IMG/VR virus record: IMGVR_UViG_3300036715_002127
Span: 1 to 27,308 of that record
Length of the DNA stretch: 27,308 bases
Source: a virus
Direction: 5' to 3' (one strand)
Below are positions 4,133 through 27,308 of the stretch, in pieces (the first letter of the stretch is position 1; each line of letters begins with the position of its first letter). The position numbers and the translations under genes are program-made. Below the pieces are notes generated by a model. That model did no database searches. It worked only from the letters and a program-made list of their open reading frames with translations, and was not told the DNA's origin.

Positions 4133-4380
4133 GATGCACCTCCTATGTTCAATCCAACTTGTTTACTTGTTGCTATCGTCAAAAATATATTAACTACAGC
4201 AACTATACCACCTGCCAATAGATTAACCATATCTTTATCAATAGGTAACTGATAACTCTGAACTATAATAAACAAAATACCAGCTATTACATTGATAGCA
4301 TTCTGAACATTTTTCCAAGCAGCAGCATTAGATAATTCATAGCCCTTATGTAATACTTGCCACCAATCTAAAAATCCCAT
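4129..4380 (-). CDS. Putative holin with two transmembrane helices
   Basis: An 83-residue protein with two clear membrane segments, about residues 27-43 (NAINVIAGILFIIVQSY) and about 53-70 (LLAGGIVAVVNIFLTIA), joined by a short charged loop (PIDKD). Size, topology and direct adjacency to the transglycosylase gene fit a class II-type holin that forms holes in the cytoplasmic membrane and releases the endolysin. It starts one base after the endolysin stop region and its ribosome site (GGAGG) lies inside the end of the endolysin gene, so expression is coupled. Confidence 0.7.
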   Translation of the reverse strand: MGFLDWWQVLHKGYELSNAAAWKNVQNAINVIAGILFIIVQSYQLPIDKDMVNLLAGGIVAVVNIFLTIATSKQVGLNIGGAS

Positions 4381-7669: not shown

Positions 7670-7700
7670 TTATAACATCCTCCTTATTAAATAAAAATAT

Positions 7701-7719
7701 AAATCAATTAAACTGATTT
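7701..7719 (-). terminator. Weak AT-rich hairpin after the tail gene
   Basis: AAATCA (7701-7706) and TGATTT (7714-7719) form a 6-base-pair AT-rich stem overlapping the stop codon of the gene before the spike; on the minus strand it is followed by ATATTTTTATTT. This could be a weak terminator that lowers spike expression, but the stem is poor. Confidence 0.25.
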
Positions 7720-12073: not shown

Positions 12074-14004
12074 TACTGACCCCCAGAAACCATTTGAAGT
12101 ATTGAACTAAATATATTACCATTCTTATTGCCAAGAGTTGTCTTGAGTAAATCTTTATCAGATATAACCTCATTACCAACCTTAGCACTAACTTCCTGTA
12201 ACTTCTGCTGCTGCGCTTGCTGCTGCTGAGCCATAGCAACCATCTCTTCTTGAGTAGGTATCCTAACAAAATCAGACGGTAAATTCATACGCTTAAACAA
12301 TTCCTTAAATACCGTAACCATATCTATATAAGGAGTTAAACCTAATTGTGAACACAATTGAACAAATTCCATTATACTTTGAACTTCATTCTGTGACTTA
12401 ACTAAAGTAGTCATACCATTAACTGTAATAGATATTCCATCTAATAACATACTATATAATACTTTATTAGTATCAGTATATTCTTGCGATGAAGCCATTT
12501 TATCAACAAGAACTTGATTCTCATTATCATTAAGCAAATCTTTTATATCATCAAACTTATACAAACAATACAACGCTAACATCTTCTTCGCAGCCTTAAC
12601 AAAGAAACTACTCTCTATCCTCGATATAATAGTTGAAATCATTTCAGAATTTTGCTGAGTTTTCAAGGAAACTTCTTTCGCAGTAGGACGACCTTTAGAT
12701 GTAGGCATACCCATCAAAAACTCAGTCATTCCAGTTATATTCTGAACTTCATTAACCAAAAGCTGCCTAACTGGAAGAAGATTAGGGTCAAATGAAGCTA
12801 ACTGAAATGTAGATACCGCAGGCTTCTCTCCTATTGACTTAACAACTGTAAATGGAGATATAGTTATAGTATTCTCTCCTTCAGCTAATGCCTGTGTGTT
12901 TAAGTTAAATCCAGAAGCAGTTGACAAAACACCCCTATCAACTATACCCCTTAAAAATCTCGAATCCTCTTTGAAATAATCCCATACCAAATCAGCAAAC
13001 GATACCTGAACATCATCACTGTAAAAACTCTCAAAAATAATAGGAACTCCACTATCTAAGTCTGATACAAGAGAATAAGATACTAAATATATGTCATTAA
13101 CTATCGTAAACTTATACAAAGAAGATACAAAATCTGGACTCACAAACCTACAATAAACATCTGATACCTTAACAGAAGATGAATAAGAAGGGTCTGTTGA
13201 TACTACATTATAGAAGACTTTATCAACTTCTTTTGTTTTATAATAAGGTTTCAAATCCTCTACTGGATAATCCCATACTAAATTATGCTTGTATGCAACC
13301 TCATATGGTATGTAATTTATAACTTCTATTATCGTCTTATCTTCATTAAAATTACAAAGCAAAGGATGTATAGGTTTTACCGATACATCTTGTGTAACCT
13401 CACCTAATTCATTAACAACATAATCACACTTTATCTCAAGAGATAAATAAGAAGATAATACACTGTAAAACAAACTCTTCTCTATAGCTTCATAAAAATC
13501 AGTTTTACTCGCTGCTATATCAAAAATCTTCTTATACAAGGAAGGAAGAATAGGATTTTCAGAACTGAAATTGATGAAATTATCTTGAGAGGATTTTAAT
13601 AGACTACGCAAATACAAAGATATGAAAATTACTTTCTGAAAAAACAAAGAAGACTTAATGTTAGTCCGCCAATTTCCTGTTTCTAAATCAGGTTCTGTTA
13701 TGATTGAATTTCCATTTAACTCACGAAGGTAGTCTATTACCTTCATCTGACGTAATGTGCAAGCAGATACTGCCCTATTTTTAGCACCTAATACAAAAGC
13801 CTTTACTTCATTATACCCAAGAAGTTTACTACCTGCAGTGGATAATAAAATCAAATCTCTGTCATCACCAGCTAAAATACTGTCTTCAGCTTTATTTTCT
13901 TCTTGCTTCTCAAAACCTTCAGTAGTATTAAACTGCGATGTATTATTGCCTGTGTTTTGAATTATACTAACATTATCTAAACTGGACTTCAACGTATTAT
14001 CCAT
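12073..14004 (-). CDS. Portal protein (head-tail connector)
   Basis: Dodecameric channel at the unique capsid vertex through which DNA enters and leaves; it partners large terminase. The 643-residue length fits portals of short-tailed phages. Recognisable parts are the central beta/alpha clip-wing region, the conserved NITGMTEFLMGMPTSKGRPTAKEV-like segment at about residues 425-450 (a typical portal stem/crown signature in which Thr-Ala-x-Glu-Val precedes a long helix), the long helix with ISRIESSFFVKAAKKMLALY, and a Gln-rich end (AMAQQQQAQQQKLQEV) like the barrel of P22-type portals. It is the first gene of the late block, preceded by two strong promoters. The ribosome site is GAGGG. Its stop overlaps the next start by one base. 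Confidence 0.85.
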   Translation of the reverse strand: MDNTLKSSLDNVSIIQNTGNNTSQFNTTEGFEKQEENKAEDSILAGDDRDLILLSTAGSKLLGYNEVKAFVLGAKNRAVSACTLRQMKVIDYLRELNGNSIITEPDLETGNWRTNIKSSLFFQKVIFISLYLRSLLKSSQDNFINFSSENPILPSLYKKIFDIAASKTDFYEAIEKSLFYSVLSSYLSLEIKCDYVVNELGEVTQDVSVKPIHPLLCNFNEDKTIIEVINYIPYEVAYKHNLVWDYPVEDLKPYYKTKEVDKVFYNVVSTDPSYSSSVKVSDVYCRFVSPDFVSSLYKFTIVNDIYLVSYSLVSDLDSGVPIIFESFYSDDVQVSFADLVWDYFKEDSRFLRGIVDRGVLSTASGFNLNTQALAEGENTITISPFTVVKSIGEKPAVSTFQLASFDPNLLPVRQLLVNEVQNITGMTEFLMGMPTSKGRPTAKEVSLKTQQNSEMISTIISRIESSFFVKAAKKMLALYCLYKFDDIKDLLNDNENQVLVDKMASSQEYTDTNKVLYSMLLDGISITVNGMTTLVKSQNEVQSIMEFVQLCSQLGLTPYIDMVTVFKELFKRMNLPSDFVRIPTQEEMVAMAQQQQAQQQKLQEVSAKVGNEVISDKDLLKTTLGNKNGNIFSSILQMVSGGQ

Positions 14005-14092: not shown

Positions 14093-14120
14093 ATTATACA
14101 ACTAAAATTTTATTTGTCAA
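14093..14120 (-). promoter_or_regulatory. Late promoter P1 (distal), perfect consensus
   Basis: On the minus strand TTGACA (14115-14120), 16 bases, TATAAT (14093-14098): both hexamers perfect. It would be recognised by the host vegetative RNA polymerase without a phage sigma factor, so late expression may depend on a repressor, on DNA replication or on antitermination rather than on a new polymerase specificity. Confidence 0.8.
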
Positions 14121-14193
14121 GAAAAAAGTAAAGGCATTTAATCAATGAAAAGAAAGCCTCGCATTATATAGCTAATTTTGCGCAGACACGGAT

Positions 14194-14293
14194 AGTTAGA
14201 CTGAAGAGGCCTGTGGGCGTTTTGCGTTTCGGGAAATTTCATTATGCCCTCCTTGCCTCCGCCAAATGCCGCCAAACGCCTCTTGTCTTAACT
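14194..14293. repeat. Imperfect inverted repeat at the edge of a GC-rich island
   Basis: AGTTAGACTGAAGAGGC (14194-14210) is mirrored by GCCTCTTGTCTTAACT (14278-14293), giving arms of about 17 bases with two or three differences. The enclosed DNA is GC-rich (GCC, CGCC and GGGCG runs), in sharp contrast to the AT-rich flanks. It could be a small inserted element or a long RNA stem; no transposase or target duplication is seen. Confidence 0.5.
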
Positions 14294-14317
14294 TGCATGC
14301 ACTTGGCAAATTTGCAT

Positions 14318-14476
14318 GGAATGGCATCAGCATGGCATGGAATGGGCCCGGCTTGGCATGACATGGAATGGCATCAGCATGGCATGGAATGGGCCCGGCT
14401 TGGCATGGAATGGCATCAGCATGGCATGGAATGGAATGGAATGGCATCGGCATGGAATGGCATCAGCATGGCATGG
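14318..14476. repeat. GC-rich degenerate tandem repeat (GGAATGGCATCAGCATGGCA)
   Basis: The 20-base word GGAATGGCATCAGCATGGCA occurs four times, at 14318, 14365, 14407 and 14454 (spacings 47, 42, 47). The intervals are themselves made of GGAATGG, GGCATGG and GGGCCCGGCTTGGCATG pieces, so this is a nested array rather than repeats with unique spacers. It lies between the late promoters and the palindrome cluster. Function unknown; protein-binding iterons or a replication-slippage product are the options. Confidence 0.85.
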
Positions 14477-14585
14477 CTTAGCAATCTAAAGTTAAAAGAA
14501 TTGCTAAAATAACTTGGAATTTTACATAATGGAAGTTATACGACATAAAACATAAACATTCTTAACATTAAACAATTTAATTTAG

Positions 14586-14674
14586 AGTGCAAATTTTGCA
14601 CTTTTCCCTGTATTAAAAAAGTTAATAAATTTTATTAACTTAAAAATGTTTATGAAAAAGTGCAAAAATTGCAC
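14586..14674. promoter_or_regulatory. Composite dyad: two GTGCAA-type palindromes around a 23-base palindrome
   Basis: GTGCAAATTTTGCAC (14587-14601) and GTGCAAAAATTGCAC (14660-14674) are each palindromic. They flank a perfect 23-base palindrome with arms AAGTTAATAAA / TTTATTAACTT centred at 14630. The outer centres lie 36 and 37 bases from the middle, and T-rich/A-rich borders (CACTTTT and AAAAAGTG) keep the symmetry, so the whole of about 88 bases is one nested dyad. Candidate operator pair with looping, replication origin or recombination/resolution site; no gene is encoded here. Confidence 0.7.
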
Positions 14675-14675
14675 A

Positions 14676-14888
14676 TATAGGAAAAACCTATAGTAACTAT
14701 AAAATTATGAATTTACAAGTTACTTGTAAATTTTCATTTCAAAACGCAATAAAATCAATATGTTACAAATAGCCCTTATAACATATTGATTTAATTAAGA
14801 AAATTTTCAACTATAAAATTTATTACTATAAATAAAATTTTTTAATAGTGAATTGTTAAAAAGTTAGTCGATTTTTCACTATTAAAAA
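14676..14888. repeat. Chain of four further perfect inverted repeats
   Basis: In order: TATAGG/CCTATA (14676-14692, 5-base loop); a 23-base palindrome with arms AATTTACAAGT / ACTTGTAAATT (14710-14732); AAATCAATATGTTA / TAACATATTGATTT (14752-14792, 13-base loop); TTTTTAATAGTGAA / TTCACTATTAAAAA (14839-14888, 22-base loop). All arms pair perfectly. The region has no plausible gene and is very AT-rich. Together with the preceding dyad it forms a roughly 300-base structured block of the kind found at origins or multi-operator control regions. Confidence 0.8.
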
Positions 14889-15036
14889 TTTTTATACATG
14901 CCCCAAATCGGCCTCGGAATCAAAGAAAAGAGCCCCGTAAAAATATTGAATAAAATCAGGGTTTTATTGAGTCAATGAAATGGCAGATGGGTTTTTATTT
15001 TTATATAATAATAAATAATATATTTTATTTCTATTT
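14889..15036. other. AT-rich non-coding stretch
   Basis: Between the palindromes and the triplet repeat I see no convincing gene, promoter or structure. A GC-rich fragment (GCCCCAAATCGGCCTCGG, near 14901-14918) interrupts otherwise AT-rich DNA. Confidence 0.5.
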
Positions 15037-15103
<67 letters not shown>

Positions 15104-15310
15104 CTTTTTCCAGCGCTCAAAAAACTATATAACCCGTTTTATAATAAATTTTTCGCTTTTTTTAGCATGTAAATAACCGATATTATTAAATAAAGCTTTA
15201 AGTCACTTAATCAACCTGTCTTTTTTATAATACAGCTAAAAAACGTTGTAACAGTTTGATTTTATTAGGAAAAATAGCATTTTTTGTTGATTTTTTATAT
15301 TTTTATCCAT

Positions 15311-15449
15311 GGCCGAGCCCTGCGAAGCTCTGCCATGCTATCCTTATCCTTGTCCAGGCCGAGCCCTGCGAAGCTCTGCCAGGCTATCCTTGTCCATATC
15401 CTGCCATGCTATTCTATCCTTGGCTGAGCCTAATCCAAGCCGTTGTCTT
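15311..15449. repeat. Second GC-rich repeat family (GGCCGAGCCCTGCGAAGCTC)
   Basis: Two near-identical copies begin at 15311 and 15357 (period 46). Each contains GGCCGAGCCCTGCGAAGCTC followed by TGCCA-GCTATCCTT and, in part, GTCCA. A degenerate third part (TGCTATTCTATCCTTGGCTG) follows to about 15450. GAGC/GCTC pair around an 8-base loop, so each unit can fold into a hairpin. The DNA before it (15104-15310) is AT-rich with no feature I can support. Related words recur at the end of the small gene ending at 18474. Confidence 0.8.
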
Positions 15450-15522
15450 TCCCTGTTTCCTTGGCTATCTAAAGTAACACGATTTTTATAAAATTATTAT
15501 TTTGAATAATACAAAAAAGCTC

Positions 15523-15551
15523 TTGACAATGTAAATTGGATTTGGTATTGT
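15523..15551 (+). promoter_or_regulatory. Early promoter A
   Basis: TTGACA (15523-15528), 17 bases, TATTGT (15546-15551). The segment 15478-15551 aligns without gaps to 16598-16671 (58 of 74 identical), including the identical 20-mer ACAAAAAAGCTCTTGACAAT. The start region carries TGTAACCAACAATGTAGGTTA, a possible small stem, a variant of which recurs before the next gene at 15950-15969. Confidence 0.8.
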
Positions 15552-15597
15552 GTAACCAACAATGTAGGTTATTACATATCTTATAAGGGGGTGTCTT

Positions 15598-15999: not shown

Positions 16000-16368
16000 A
16001 TGGACGAAATGAATTGGACGTATTACCGTAGTGTCGATGGCGACGTGGTCAAAGTGTTTTTTCCGTTTGAAAGTGTAATTAGCAATGTAGGCGGCGTTTT
16101 TCATGGAAGCCGCGTCATTTCGACCACCGATTTCGAAGAAGATTACGACGCAGTCCTTATATGTCATGGCAGTGATTTACTGTTTCTCACCACCCGTTGG
16201 TGGGACGTAATAGATGGTGACGTCACCATCTATTACGTCGAGGGACTTGCTATCCTGCAGTCCCCTCGACCCTTTATACTCCGGCCGGTGAATTGGCCGG
16301 AAAAGGCCGGTTGGAAATTTTTAATTGGCCATAAAGAGGGGTTTGACACCGGCTGGCGTAAAATCTAA
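16000..16368 (+). CDS. Early protein of unknown function with palindrome-laden coding DNA
   Basis: A 122-residue protein (MDEMNWTYYRSVDGDVVKVF ...) with AAAGGGA about 11 bases before the ATG. It is mostly beta-like with several Trp and Asp residues; no family recognised. The coding DNA is more GC-rich than that of its neighbours and densely folded: besides the 36-base palindrome at 16204-16239 there are CCACC/GGTGG (16190-16203), GTCGAGGGACT with an imperfect partner (16237-16270), CCGGCC/GGCCGG (16282-16300) and GCGGC/GCCGC stems. Composition and structure suggest recent acquisition or selection for RNA folding. The first stretch before it (15925-15999) repeats part of the promoter A start region. 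Confidence 0.65.
   Translation: MDEMNWTYYRSVDGDVVKVFFPFESVISNVGGVFHGSRVISTTDFEEDYDAVLICHGSDLLFLTTRWWDVIDGDVTIYYVEGLAILQSPRPFILRPVNWPEKAGWKFLIGHKEGFDTGWRKI
16204..16239. repeat. 36-base perfect palindrome inside a coding region
   Basis: Arms GACGTAATAGATGGTGAC (16204-16221) and GTCACCATCTATTACGTC (16222-16239) are exact reverse complements with no loop, centred on GACGTC. In frame it encodes DVIDGDVTIYYV. It can be a protein-binding dyad, a long mRNA stem or a cruciform. Confidence 0.95.
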
Positions 16369-16407
16369 ACCATTTTAAGGGGTGATGGTATCGTGCCATT
16401 GCCCCTT

Positions 16408-16465
16408 AAAAGTTATTTTTGTTTTATAAAATAAAATTTTATTTTATAAAACAAAAATAACTTTT
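16408..16465. terminator. 58-base perfect palindrome after the early gene
   Basis: Arms of 29 bases (16408-16436 and 16437-16465), exact reverse complements without a loop, beginning AAAAGTTATTTTTG and ending CAAAAATAACTTTT. Outer TGCCC/GGGCA can extend the stem with a short bulge. In RNA it would be a very long A-U stem 40 bases after the stop codon, so it may end or process both strands' transcripts; termination is inferred because no separate T run is needed inside so U-rich an arm. It contains TTTTATTTTATAAAA, also present at 17383-17397. Confidence 0.85.
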
Positions 16466-16500
16466 CTTTGGGCATGTATTGATTTTTATTTTTTGCGTTA

Positions 16501-16556
16501 AAATTTTAACGGACAAATTAAAATTTTAACGGTCAATTTGTTTAATTTTAACGGAC
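16501..16556 (+). repeat. Three direct repeats of AATTTTAACGGAC (iteron-like)
   Basis: AAATTTTAACGGAC (16501-16514), AAATTTTAACGGTC (16521-16534) and AATTTTAACGGAC (16544-16556); the TTAACGG cores are 20 and 22 bases apart, about two helical turns, so they face the same side of DNA. Degenerate copies occur at 16590-16600 and near 17495. They lie just upstream of promoter B, in the 358-base gap 16369-16726, and may bind a regulator or replication initiator. Confidence 0.75.
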
Positions 16557-16642
16557 GGCTATTTTTACCGTTCCCTTGGATTAAAGGACAATTTTAACAC
16601 GATTTTATTAGAGTTATTATTTCAGATAAAACAAAAAAGCTC

Positions 16643-16671
16643 TTGACAATCATATTAGGATATGGTAATCT
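16643..16671 (+). promoter_or_regulatory. Early promoter B
   Basis: TTGACA (16643-16648), 17 bases, TAATCT (16666-16671), followed by AAAAATCAAAG, which is also found after promoter C at 19022. Duplicate of promoter A over 74 bases. It drives the paired acidic genes that follow. Confidence 0.8.
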
Positions 16672-16726
16672 AAAAATCAAAGAAAAGCTGTAAAGCTTAA
16701 ATCTAAAAAGAAAGGGGATTAAGAAA

Positions 16727-17050
16727 ATGAAAGCTTTATCAAAAAATGAGTTCATTACAAACATGAGGGCAGCTCCAGTTAACTTATTTTCAGATGAGGG
16801 CTTGGAAATTATTTTTGATTATTTAACGAGTTTTGACGCAAATAATCTTAAAGAAATTGAATTTGATTCTGAAGAAATTAGGGAATTTTTTGCGGAAAAT
16901 TATTTTGAAGAAATTTTAGAGTTTTTTGATATTGACTGGCATGGATTGAATGAGAATGATAAAAAATCTTTAGCGGTATCTTATCTCAAAAAAGAAACAA
17001 AAGTTTTAGGTGCCACAGCTAAAGGCACCGTTGTTTTTCAAATTTTTTAA
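16727..17050 (+). CDS. Small acidic early protein, paralogue of the next gene
   Basis: A 107-residue acidic protein (MKALSKNEFITNMRAAPVNL ...). It has the layout of a small-protein family I know from low-GC phages and their hosts: an N-terminal helix ending in MR, an IIFDYL helix, an EIEFD segment, and an end VLGATAKGTVVFQ-like strand pair. Its role is not established; the strong negative charge in the middle would fit DNA mimicry or a host-protein ligand, which is speculation. GAAAGGGGA precedes the ATG. GGTGCC (17009-17014) pairs with GGCACC (17024-17029) within the coding region. Confidence 0.75.
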   Translation: MKALSKNEFITNMRAAPVNLFSDEGLEIIFDYLTSFDANNLKEIEFDSEEIREFFAENYFEEILEFFDIDWHGLNENDKKSLAVSYLKKETKVLGATAKGTVVFQIF

Positions 17051-17076
17051 TTTCAAAAAAGAAAGGAAATTGAACT

Positions 17077-17348: not shown

Positions 17349-17390
17349 AACCCTTGCCATATCCATAACAGTATGGCAAGGGTTTTATTT
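17349..17390 (+). terminator. Strong intrinsic terminator
   Basis: AACCCTTGCCATA (17349-17361) pairs perfectly with TATGGCAAGGGTT (17372-17384), 13 base pairs with a 10-base loop, followed by TTATTTTAT. An upstream stem GTTGATT (17325-17331) / AATCAAC (17345-17351) overlaps its first three bases and could compete with it. Confidence 0.85.
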
Positions 17391-17443
17391 TATAAAATTT
17401 TATAAATACTTTTTGTTTATTTATAAAATTTTATAAAATAAAA
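17383..17443. repeat. Long AT-only inverted repeat, 24-base arms
   Basis: Left arm 17383-17406 begins TTTTATTTTATAAAA; right arm 17420-17443 is its exact reverse complement; loop of 13 bases (TACTTTTTGTTTA). It shares a 15-base word with the 58-base palindrome at 16408. It follows the terminator directly and may work as a terminator for opposing transcription. Confidence 0.9.
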
Positions 17444-18976: not shown

Positions 18977-18992
18977 AGTCTATAAAAACCCC

Positions 18993-19021
18993 TTGACAAT
19001 CGTGAAATGTTAGGGTTTAAT
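18993..19021 (+). promoter_or_regulatory. Promoter C before the deaminase
   Basis: TTGACA (18993-18998), 17 bases, TTTAAT (19016-19021). It shares CTTGACAAT and the start region AAAAATCAAAG with promoter B, the latter running into the AGGAG ribosome site. It probably feeds the deaminase, the tRNA and perhaps the replication genes. Confidence 0.75.
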
Positions 19022-19041
19022 AAAAATCAAAGGAGATGTGT

Positions 19042-19491
19042 ATGAGTTTTAGCAGGCCGTCCTGGGACGATTATTTTTTATCTTTGGCTAACATGGTGGC
19101 AACACGTTCAACCTGCATGAGAAGACAAGTTGGGGCAGTATTGGTCAAGGATAAGCGGATTTTAGCCACGGGCTATAATGGTGTACCGTCTGGTTTACCA
19201 CATTGTCAAGAGACAGGTTGTTTGCGTGAACAGATGAATATACCGTCGGGAGAACGTCATGAATTGTGTAGAGGTCTTCATGCAGAGCAGAACGCCTTGA
19301 TACAAGCAGCTAAACTTGGTTTTTCTGTTGATGGTGCGACGTTATATTGCACAACGTTTCCTTGTGTAATCTGTGCAAAAATGTTAATCAATGCAGGGAT
19401 TATTAGGATAGTGTATTCTGAAGGTTATCCCGATAAGCTTACTCAAGATTTACTGGATGAAGCAGAGTTAGATGCCAAGGTGGTGAAATAG
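19042..19491 (+). CDS. Deoxycytidylate (dCMP) deaminase
   Basis: Converts dCMP to dUMP and so supplies the dTMP branch of nucleotide synthesis. In the 149-residue protein the zinc site is H80-A-E82 with the catalytic Glu, and P-C108-V-I-C111. The ATGYNG and PSGLPHC segments and the insert with a further His/Cys ([12 protein letters not shown]) are typical of T4-like dCMP deaminases. I chose ATG 19042 because AGGAG abuts the earlier ATG at 19036. Its last 18 bases, including the TAG stop, lie within the tRNA-Leu gene. No thymidylate synthase is in the window. Confidence 0.93.
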
Positions 19492-19557
19492 GTAAACACA
19501 AGAGACTTAAAATCTCTTGGCTGTAAAGCCTTAAGGGTTCGAGTCCCTTCCTTGGCA
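19474..19557 (+). tRNA. tRNA-Leu (anticodon UAA), class II with long variable arm
   Basis: Acceptor GCCAAGG (19474-19480) pairs with CCTTGGC (19550-19556); discriminator A 19557; CCA not encoded. D stem GTG/CAC with GG in the loop (19491-19492); anticodon stem AGAGA/TCTCT with loop CTTAAAA, anticodon TAA; variable arm with GGC/GCC; T stem AAGGG/CCCTT with loop TTCGAGT. All arms pair. UUA is the leucine codon favoured by AT-rich genes like these, so it probably supplements host decoding. Its 5' end overlaps the deaminase coding region by 18 bases. Confidence 0.97.
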
Positions 19558-19575
19558 ATAAAAGGAGTTGTAAAA

Positions 19576-26063: not shown

Positions 26064-27308
26064 ATGAAACAAGAATTATGTAAAGTCAGAGATGTTTGTC
26101 AAGATTTAGGTTGGATAGATGATAAAGGCAAAATCAACGACAATGTTATCGTTACTATTCACGACAATGAGAAGTATAAATACTATTCTTTGAATAGTAT
26201 GGTAGGTTCATTTAGCATTGAAGATACATTTAAGACTTTAAATAATACACATAGGATATGTTTGGCTTTACATACATTAGATGGTGCACCATCTCATGAT
26301 ACTTTCTTTAGAACAAAATGTGTAGGTTATGCTGATTTGGATAGTCGTTTATCTCTTGAAGAAATAGAGTCTTTATTCAATGAGAATGAATTTATTAAGC
26401 CAACTTATCTTCACAAGACATATAAAGGTTGGCATTTTCTTTGGGTCTGTGAAGATTGGATTGATGATAAAGCTATCCTTACAGCGTTTTCTTCTTTGGT
26501 TAAGAAGAATATTAAGCAAGCTGATGCTGTTAACAGTATTGTAGCCAAGACAAGAACATTTACTGAGGAATTATTTATAATTAAATTTGGTAAACTTTTG
26601 TCTATCAATAAAGTAAATTCTCTTGTTAAAAATGAATTGAAATTGATTTCTGTGGATAGTAAGGAGTATTCTTTAAGTGAGTTTTCAGTTGAGCATGTTA
26701 ACTTTGCATTGCAGCATTGTGAAGTATTGAAGCAATTAGACAGTGACTGGAGTAATCACAGGTATGAAGAATGGGATATAATGTCTCATGTATATGCAGT
26801 TAAATCAGTCTTTGATAAAACAGCAGAGGATGATTTTATACATAAGTCTTTAACCTGGAAAGGTGAGACTAATGAGAAACTAATTAAACAGCAGTTTCTA
26901 CATCAATCTTCTTGGATTACTAAAGACGCAAAAATACTTCATTTGTATGGCTGCCCAAAGTTTGCTAAGACTGTTGGTGCTTTTGTAAATGGTGTTTGTA
27001 AATTCAAGAAACAATGCGAATTAGCATTATACAATACACCATTTAAGCTCAAAGATGTTTTGGAACAGGATTGGTTTCCTTTTTTCTTCACAAATGAAGG
27101 ATTATTTTTGCAGGTAAGAGATAAGGAAGGTGAATTTAGTAATCAATTAGTCTGTGATATAGTTTCGATTGATGGTGTTTATGATGATATAGGTGGTTCT
27201 GATTTAATTTTCTTCAAGGTTCTTGTTAACAGAAAAGGTGGGTTAAAGCCAGAATGGTTGAGTATTAAAATTGGTAATGGTAAAGATAAAGGATTGACTA
27301 TTCTTCCT
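26064..27308 (+). CDS. PrimPol-like primase (archaeo-eukaryotic type), incomplete at right edge
   Basis: An open frame from ATG 26064 (GGGG ribosome site) running off the window; 415 codons visible. The N-terminal domain has the three catalytic signatures of AEP primases in order: D91-x-D93 in YADLDSR, G-x-H124 in KGWHFLW, and D154 in KQADAV. Such proteins in phages are primase-polymerases often fused to a helicase domain; no Walker A motif is visible up to the edge. It starts 2 bases after the nuclease stop. It probably primes replication with the clamp, SSB and helicase encoded before it. Confidence 0.75.
   Translation, partial: MKQELCKVRDVCQDLGWIDDKGKINDNVIVTIHDNEKYKYYSLNSMVGSFSIEDTFKTLNNTHRICLALHTLDGAPSHDTFFRTKCVGYADLDSRLSLEEIESLFNENEFIKPTYLHKTYKGWHFLWVCEDWIDDKAILTAFSSLVKKNIKQADAVNSIVAKTRTFTEELFIIKFGKLLSINKVNSLVKNELKLISVDSKEYSLSEFSVEHVNFALQHCEVLKQLDSDWSNHRYEEWDIMSHVYAVKSVFDKTAEDDFIHKSLTWKGETNEKLIKQQFLHQSSWITKDAKILHLYGCPKFAKTVGAFVNGVCKFKKQCELALYNTPFKLKDVLEQDWFPFFFTNEGLFLQVRDKEGEFSNQLVCDIVSIDGVYDDIGGSDLIFFKVLVNRKGGLKPEWLSIKIGNGKDKGLTILP

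Follow-up and report, generated by a model that had tools for sequence, protein, structure and literature searches.

A loop-free 58-bp palindrome as a probable derivative of a looped hairpin in the early-gene cassettes of a small phage group

We propose that the perfect 58-bp palindrome at 16408-16465 is the stem-loop of a repeated regulatory cassette which lost its loop by recombination or slippage and whose left arm was copied from the right one by a template switch, its most likely function being that of a back-up terminator and insulator. We put the probability of this reading at about 0.7. The window, by which we mean the whole stretch of DNA analysed, is an IMG/VR record of 27,308 bases and represents a metagenomic contig.

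Positions 16408-16436 are the exact reverse complement of 16437-16465, which gives 29-nt arms with no spacer, and 4 of the 58 bases are G or C. Markov simulations of the whole window returned loop-free arms of at most 13 nt (order-2, n=100) and at most 10 nt (order-4, n=100), and for the AT-rich intergenic stretch taken by itself 500 order-2 runs gave at most 12 nt. Because simulated loop-free arms never exceeded 13 nt, the 29-nt arm cannot be attributed to chance. The first-pass annotation had recognised the palindrome correctly, together with its location 3´ of an early gene (it starts 40 bp downstream of ORF 16000-16368). It was also right about the 15-base word common to the palindrome and the inverted repeat at 17383; this word, TTTTATTTTATAAAA, is present at 16437 and 17383 (plus complements) and absent elsewhere in the window. 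Its premise that a palindrome of 58 bp must be deleted was overstated, as the target of the phage N15 protelomerase is a working 56-bp palindromic core (PMC12624138). The annotation lacked the terminator hairpin abutting the palindrome, a second palindrome at 16204-16239, and the iterons and promoter on the right, which are included in the following list.

15475-15588, + strand: one more promoter module, heading the early region (E 1.1e-20)
16000-16368, + strand: upstream early ORF, 122 aa, family 8 in our clustering, with homologues in L026, L031, L007 and L009
16204-16239, no strand: second perfect loop-free palindrome, 36 bp, GACGTAATAGATGGTGAC/GTCACCATCTATTACGTC, inside ORF 16000-16368
16373-16411, + strand: G+C-containing hairpin of the upstream gene's putative intrinsic terminator, 18 pairs (6 of them G-C), followed by a T-rich tract
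16408-16465, no strand: 58-bp perfect palindrome, the loop-less AT-rich inverted repeat of the cassette
16496-16555, + strand: three iteron-like copies of TTTTAACGG, repeated directly at 16504, 16524 and 16546
16594-16710, + strand: conserved promoter module plus leader, found again in each of the five sister contigs (nhmmer 1.6e-26)
16727-17050, + strand: downstream early ORF, 107 aa, family 0, predicted first gene of the cassette's transcript
17349-17384, + strand: terminator hairpin of the next junction
17383-17443, no strand: second AT-rich inverted repeat (type 2) in the same cassette slot, 26-nt perfect arms, 9-nt loop
17498-17505, + strand: iteron TTTAACGG, belonging to the truncated second copy of the cassette
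18984-19038, + strand: weak copy of the promoter module 5´ of the dCMP deaminase gene (E 0.007)

The elements of the cassette follow one another in the order G+C-rich intrinsic terminator, AT-rich inverted repeat, TTTTAACGG direct repeats, sigma-70-like promoter of the TTGACA/extended -10 type, and leader. As a sequence pattern, the hairpin at 16373-16411 conforms to the definition of an intrinsic terminator, that is a G+C-rich stem followed by a run of T. It abuts the palindrome with an overlap of 4 nt; the left half of the palindrome doubles as the T-rich tail of this terminator, and its other half is the right arm conserved among cassettes. Folded together as RNA, the two hairpins reach -47.8 kcal/mol versus -17.5 for shuffles. 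Another palindrome, 16 bp long (CGTTAAAATTTTAACG, 16496-16511), lies within the iteron stretch. The promoter elements, read from the sequence in the aligned block, are TTGACA at 16643-16648 and TAATCT at 16666-16671 with a 17-nt spacer. The second cassette of the window, at 17383, has no promoter module, whereas L005 and L008 keep theirs.

The product of ORF 16000-16368 has no match in Pfam or PHROG, the intergenic DNA has none in known phage genomes, and an Rfam search of the window returned nothing at the palindrome, its single match being a tRNA elsewhere. The pattern of the promoter module matches none of 84,980 prokaryote genomes and hence gives no clue to the host. Inspection of the palindrome borders by eye revealed no target-site duplication of the kind that a MITE-like element would have.

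Several other features of the window can be recorded here. Direct repeats richer in G+C (GGCATGGAATGGCATC-like and GAGCCCTGCGAAGCTCTGCC-like) are densely packed at 14283-14491 and 15311-15436, between the leftward structural and rightward early blocks; similar ones occur in L030, and they may represent an origin or a non-coding region. A long (TAC)n trinucleotide run is located at 15035-15103, with similar runs in L005 and L026. The divergent intergenic region contains three more long inverted repeats (14587-14674, 14748-14796 and 14832-14895), two or more of which are kept in the sisters. Finally, a tRNA-Leu (anticodon TAA) lies at 19473-19558, at the 3´ end of the dCMP deaminase gene.

IMG/VR protein and pattern searches identified five sister contigs: 3300035180_002179 (L030), _002052 (L031), _001353 (L008/L032), _002766 (L005/L033) and 3300037010_001581 (L026/L034). 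A search for the arms in related phages, which the first-pass annotation had recommended, found no match to the exact 29-nt arm in the viral contig collection, while a shorter arm-loop-arm pattern with any loop of 0-30 nt matched four of 2.9 million viral contigs, all of them sisters. The window and these four contigs contain eight copies of the inverted repeat in total, and the seven copies other than the palindrome have loops of 8-22 nt. Arm and loop lengths are 20 and 11 nt in L030 (where the stem extends outward past an A-C mismatch), 19 and 22 in L031, 24 and 15 as well as 25 and 8 in L008, and 28 and 11 in L005/L033; the second L005 copy has lengths of 27 and 9 with one mismatch (96%). 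A terminator hairpin stands directly to the left of the AT-rich repeat in all eight copies, and each of the seven copies that were folded forms a stable RNA hairpin (z -5 to -10). There are one or two hairpins per contig in the window and the four sisters and none in L026; the promoter module is present in 1-6 copies per contig.

In all likelihood the perfect loop-free state arose locally and recently and is not a conserved requirement. Where the first-pass annotation offered selection or very recent origin, the latter agrees with the looped state of all equivalents in the four sister contigs. Selection for the exact loop-free form is not supported, the recurring form being a stem with a loop; mutation or recombination best explains the loop-free one.

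The AT-rich hairpin is absent from terminator-only junctions (L026, at ~11960 of reversed L034; L030, ~3610; L005, ~4148; also L007 and L009), which have no promoter cassette and run straight into the ribosome site of the next gene. Because terminator junctions without a promoter cassette have no such hairpin, it belongs to the cassette and not to the terminator. There is one exception, the L008 copy at 4331, which has iterons and promoter and no hairpin; the hairpin is thus not strictly required. At L008 4195-4330, iterons and promoter are fused to the opening codons of a truncated gene that resembles family 0, an arrangement that looks like a recombination scar. The suspicion that a repeated element type is spreading between early genes needs to be reworded. 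The repeat at 17383 does belong to a repeated type, but the unit is the whole terminator-hairpin-iteron-promoter cassette, not the palindrome alone, and it is not newly spreading.

When early-region ORFs were clustered into families, the hairpin cassette turned out to be flanked by families 8 and 0 in the window, 14 and 0 in L030, 8 and 3 in L031, and 11 and 3 in L008, and to follow family 14 in L005. L026 also has families 8 and 0 in close vicinity, without the hairpin cassette. The closest relative, L030, is 96.2% identical over 16432-17061, and to the left of 16432 it matches in the type of terminator only. Since this break of homology falls into the middle of the palindrome, the palindrome marks a recombination joint. 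Judged by comparison of the contigs, the cassettes in general mark apparent joints between early genes that are exchangeable within a small group of phages.

For the origin of the loop-free form, arms were compared by edit distance, since MAFFT had aligned the left arm of the hairpins in the wrong place. The right arm differs by 1 edit from its counterparts in L030 and L031. The left arm is 3 edits away from that of L031, its nearest relative (AAAAGGTTTTTTTTGTTTTATAAAATAAA in L031, AAAAGTTATTTTTGTTTTATAAAATAAAA in the window), and precisely these three edits yield the exact complement of the right arm. Both halves of the palindrome have recognisable putative donors. Arms so rich in A and T are of low complexity, and some of their similarity may hence be convergent. 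Starting with a looped, imperfect AT-rich hairpin at a gene joint, recombination or slippage at this joint would remove the loop. A template switch during replication would then copy the right arm onto the left one and produce a perfect loop-free palindrome. The loop might have been lost by slippage on the direct repeats AAAATTTTATTTT, which flank it in L005 and L030, or the process might have started from an L031-like ancestor; alternatively, the tail of the terminator might have been joined directly to the right arm. We infer this order of events and the template switch from the arms, which speak strongly for the pattern and indirectly for the mechanism. Template switching in quasipalindromes, where a polymerase that has stalled takes the nascent strand as its template and leaves a more perfect repeat behind, is documented in E. 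coli reporters (PMC7202029) and RNA hairpins (PMC8794818). The present case shares with them the perfecting of an imperfect repeat by copying of one arm; it differs in that loss of the loop needs an extra step of deletion or recombination, and in that the mechanism is derived from comparison alone. In the literature searched we found no example of a looped hairpin converted to a perfect palindrome at a gene-exchange joint of a phage.

The 36-bp palindrome at 16204-16239 lies 170 bp upstream of the 58-bp one. Its homologues display imperfect symmetry only (matches at 18-24 of 36-41 positions), and compared with L007 there are seven differences in the left half and three in the right. In the same gene family (8), L026 carries a perfect palindrome of 28 bp where the others match at 16 to 20 of 28 positions. 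To judge from their sequences, these two palindromes look like products of the same process. An 8-base arm of the 36-bp palindrome is also found in the short palindrome AGATGGTGCACCATCT at 26279-26294. More distant relatives (L007, at 7677-7706 and 12416-12439, also L006, L009 and L020) contain the perfect loop-free palindrome CCAAAAAATGAAAAC G/C GTTTTCATTTTTTGG with 15-nt arms, and L007, L009 and L020 have a second, shorter copy of it.

As to function, the AT-rich hairpin most likely represents a second terminator and an insulator, which would catch read-through from upstream and isolate the cassette promoter. The promoter may in turn be controlled through the iterons. The role of back-up terminator and insulator is suggested by the constant placement of the hairpin between the terminator of the upstream gene and the cassette promoter, and by the T-rich stretch that follows it. 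The promoter module at 15475, at the head of the region, has neither terminator nor hairpin, which fits the insulating role. A hairpin made of A-U pairs is a weak terminator by classical rules, and the stem considered here is nearly pure A-T, without the G+C-rich stem of an intrinsic terminator. The stems themselves say little on this point: changes on both sides are rare (an A-T pair replaced by G-C in type 1, and one replaced by T-A in type 2), and they do not prove selection on the stem, because template switching or arm copying alone would yield the same changes. A literature search for tandem terminators of AT-rich composition close to early phage promoters came back empty.

Instead of folding as RNA, the repeat might act as DNA. 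Together with the iterons it would bind a phage regulator or a host nucleoid protein and control all cassette promoters at once, its symmetry serving dimer binding or DNA bending. This is a possible, if rather unlikely, explanation. It would account for the fact that the repeat accompanies iterons and promoter and not terminators alone, and for the strict one-strandedness of the TTTTAWCGG iterons (21 sites on the + strand and 0 on the - strand in six contigs), most of which lie within cassettes. Yet the hairpin form and the contact with the terminator are kept although types 1 and 2 have different stem sequences, and loop lengths range from 0 to 22 nt, which is not what a fixed dimer operator would show.

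Two further explanations, both of which we consider doubtful, see the hairpins as consequences or tools of recombination. Firstly, the hairpin could be a neutral scar, a hot spot of recombination or replication at gene joints with no role in expression. Loss of a loop and copying of an arm are indeed mutational events, and the other perfect palindromes lie inside coding sequence, where a regulatory role is unlikely; a scar would hardly explain why long stems have stayed intact in eight copies from five divergent contigs, each copy with a terminator immediately in front of it. Secondly, and with similar reservation, the AT-rich hairpins could be self-repairing recombination joints, at which replication stalls, template switching keeps the arms complementary and the structure guides crossovers. 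If this were true, early genes would be swapped precisely between terminator and promoter.

An assembly artefact is very improbable. Perfect palindromes can confuse assemblers and the contig is metagenomic, but the palindrome ends sharply with distinct unique sequence on each side, its right half and flank match L030, its left half and flank match terminators of the same gene family, and 58 bp is less than a typical short read. A replication origin composed of iterons and an AT-rich palindrome is a still fainter prospect: the iterons do adjoin an AT-rich stretch (16408-16555), but there are between one and three of these units in a contig, as a rule with a promoter and a gene behind each, and the repeat-rich region 14100-15440 between the divergent gene blocks is a better candidate. 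A telomere resolution site for a protelomerase, suggested by a length and perfect symmetry similar to the N15 core and to the 42-56 bp expected of the perfect palindromic core of such a site, is refuted as far as these fragments go, because none of eight records (the window and seven related ones, up to 63 kb, all fragments) encodes a telomere resolvase (PF16684), the equivalents are looped and present in several copies per phage, and genes run across the site in every contig.

With the back-up terminator and insulator as the preferred reading, the cassette can be compared with known systems. PeSL (promoter early stem loop) cassettes of T4-type phages were reportedly the subject of Arbiol et al. 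2010 and Comeau et al. 2014. A citing paper describes them as mediating gene shuffling (PMC4503421), and a PeSL-like element has been proposed for the archaeal virus HGTV-1 (PMC3950731). PeSL and the present cassettes both combine a terminator stem-loop with an early promoter, occur in several copies per genome, and stand at joints of exchangeable early genes that are shuffled; the same pattern is read here from the sequence, with a stem-loop terminator followed by a strong early promoter, multiple copies and a location at joints of exchanged genes. The present cassette differs from PeSL in having a second, long AT-rich hairpin and the TTTTAACGG iterons between terminator and promoter. The terminase and other genes tested show no close relation to T4-type phages. 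We say that the cassette resembles PeSL in arrangement and apparent behaviour and do not claim membership. The SAS/ESAS of Cluster K mycobacteriophages (PMC3203893) are likewise repeated intergenic units with inverted repeats and variable spacers (4-13 bp) upstream of some small genes, but ESAS are 17-bp imperfect repeats of other sequence, tied to a 13-bp translation-start motif and not to a terminator.

Taken together, these contigs offer a readable case of how small early genes could be swapped without losing control of their expression, each joint having its own stop and start signals. If our assumptions are true, the window also catches a looped hairpin in its change to a perfect palindrome at a recombination joint, a process otherwise known from E. 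coli reporters and from the evolution of RNA genes.
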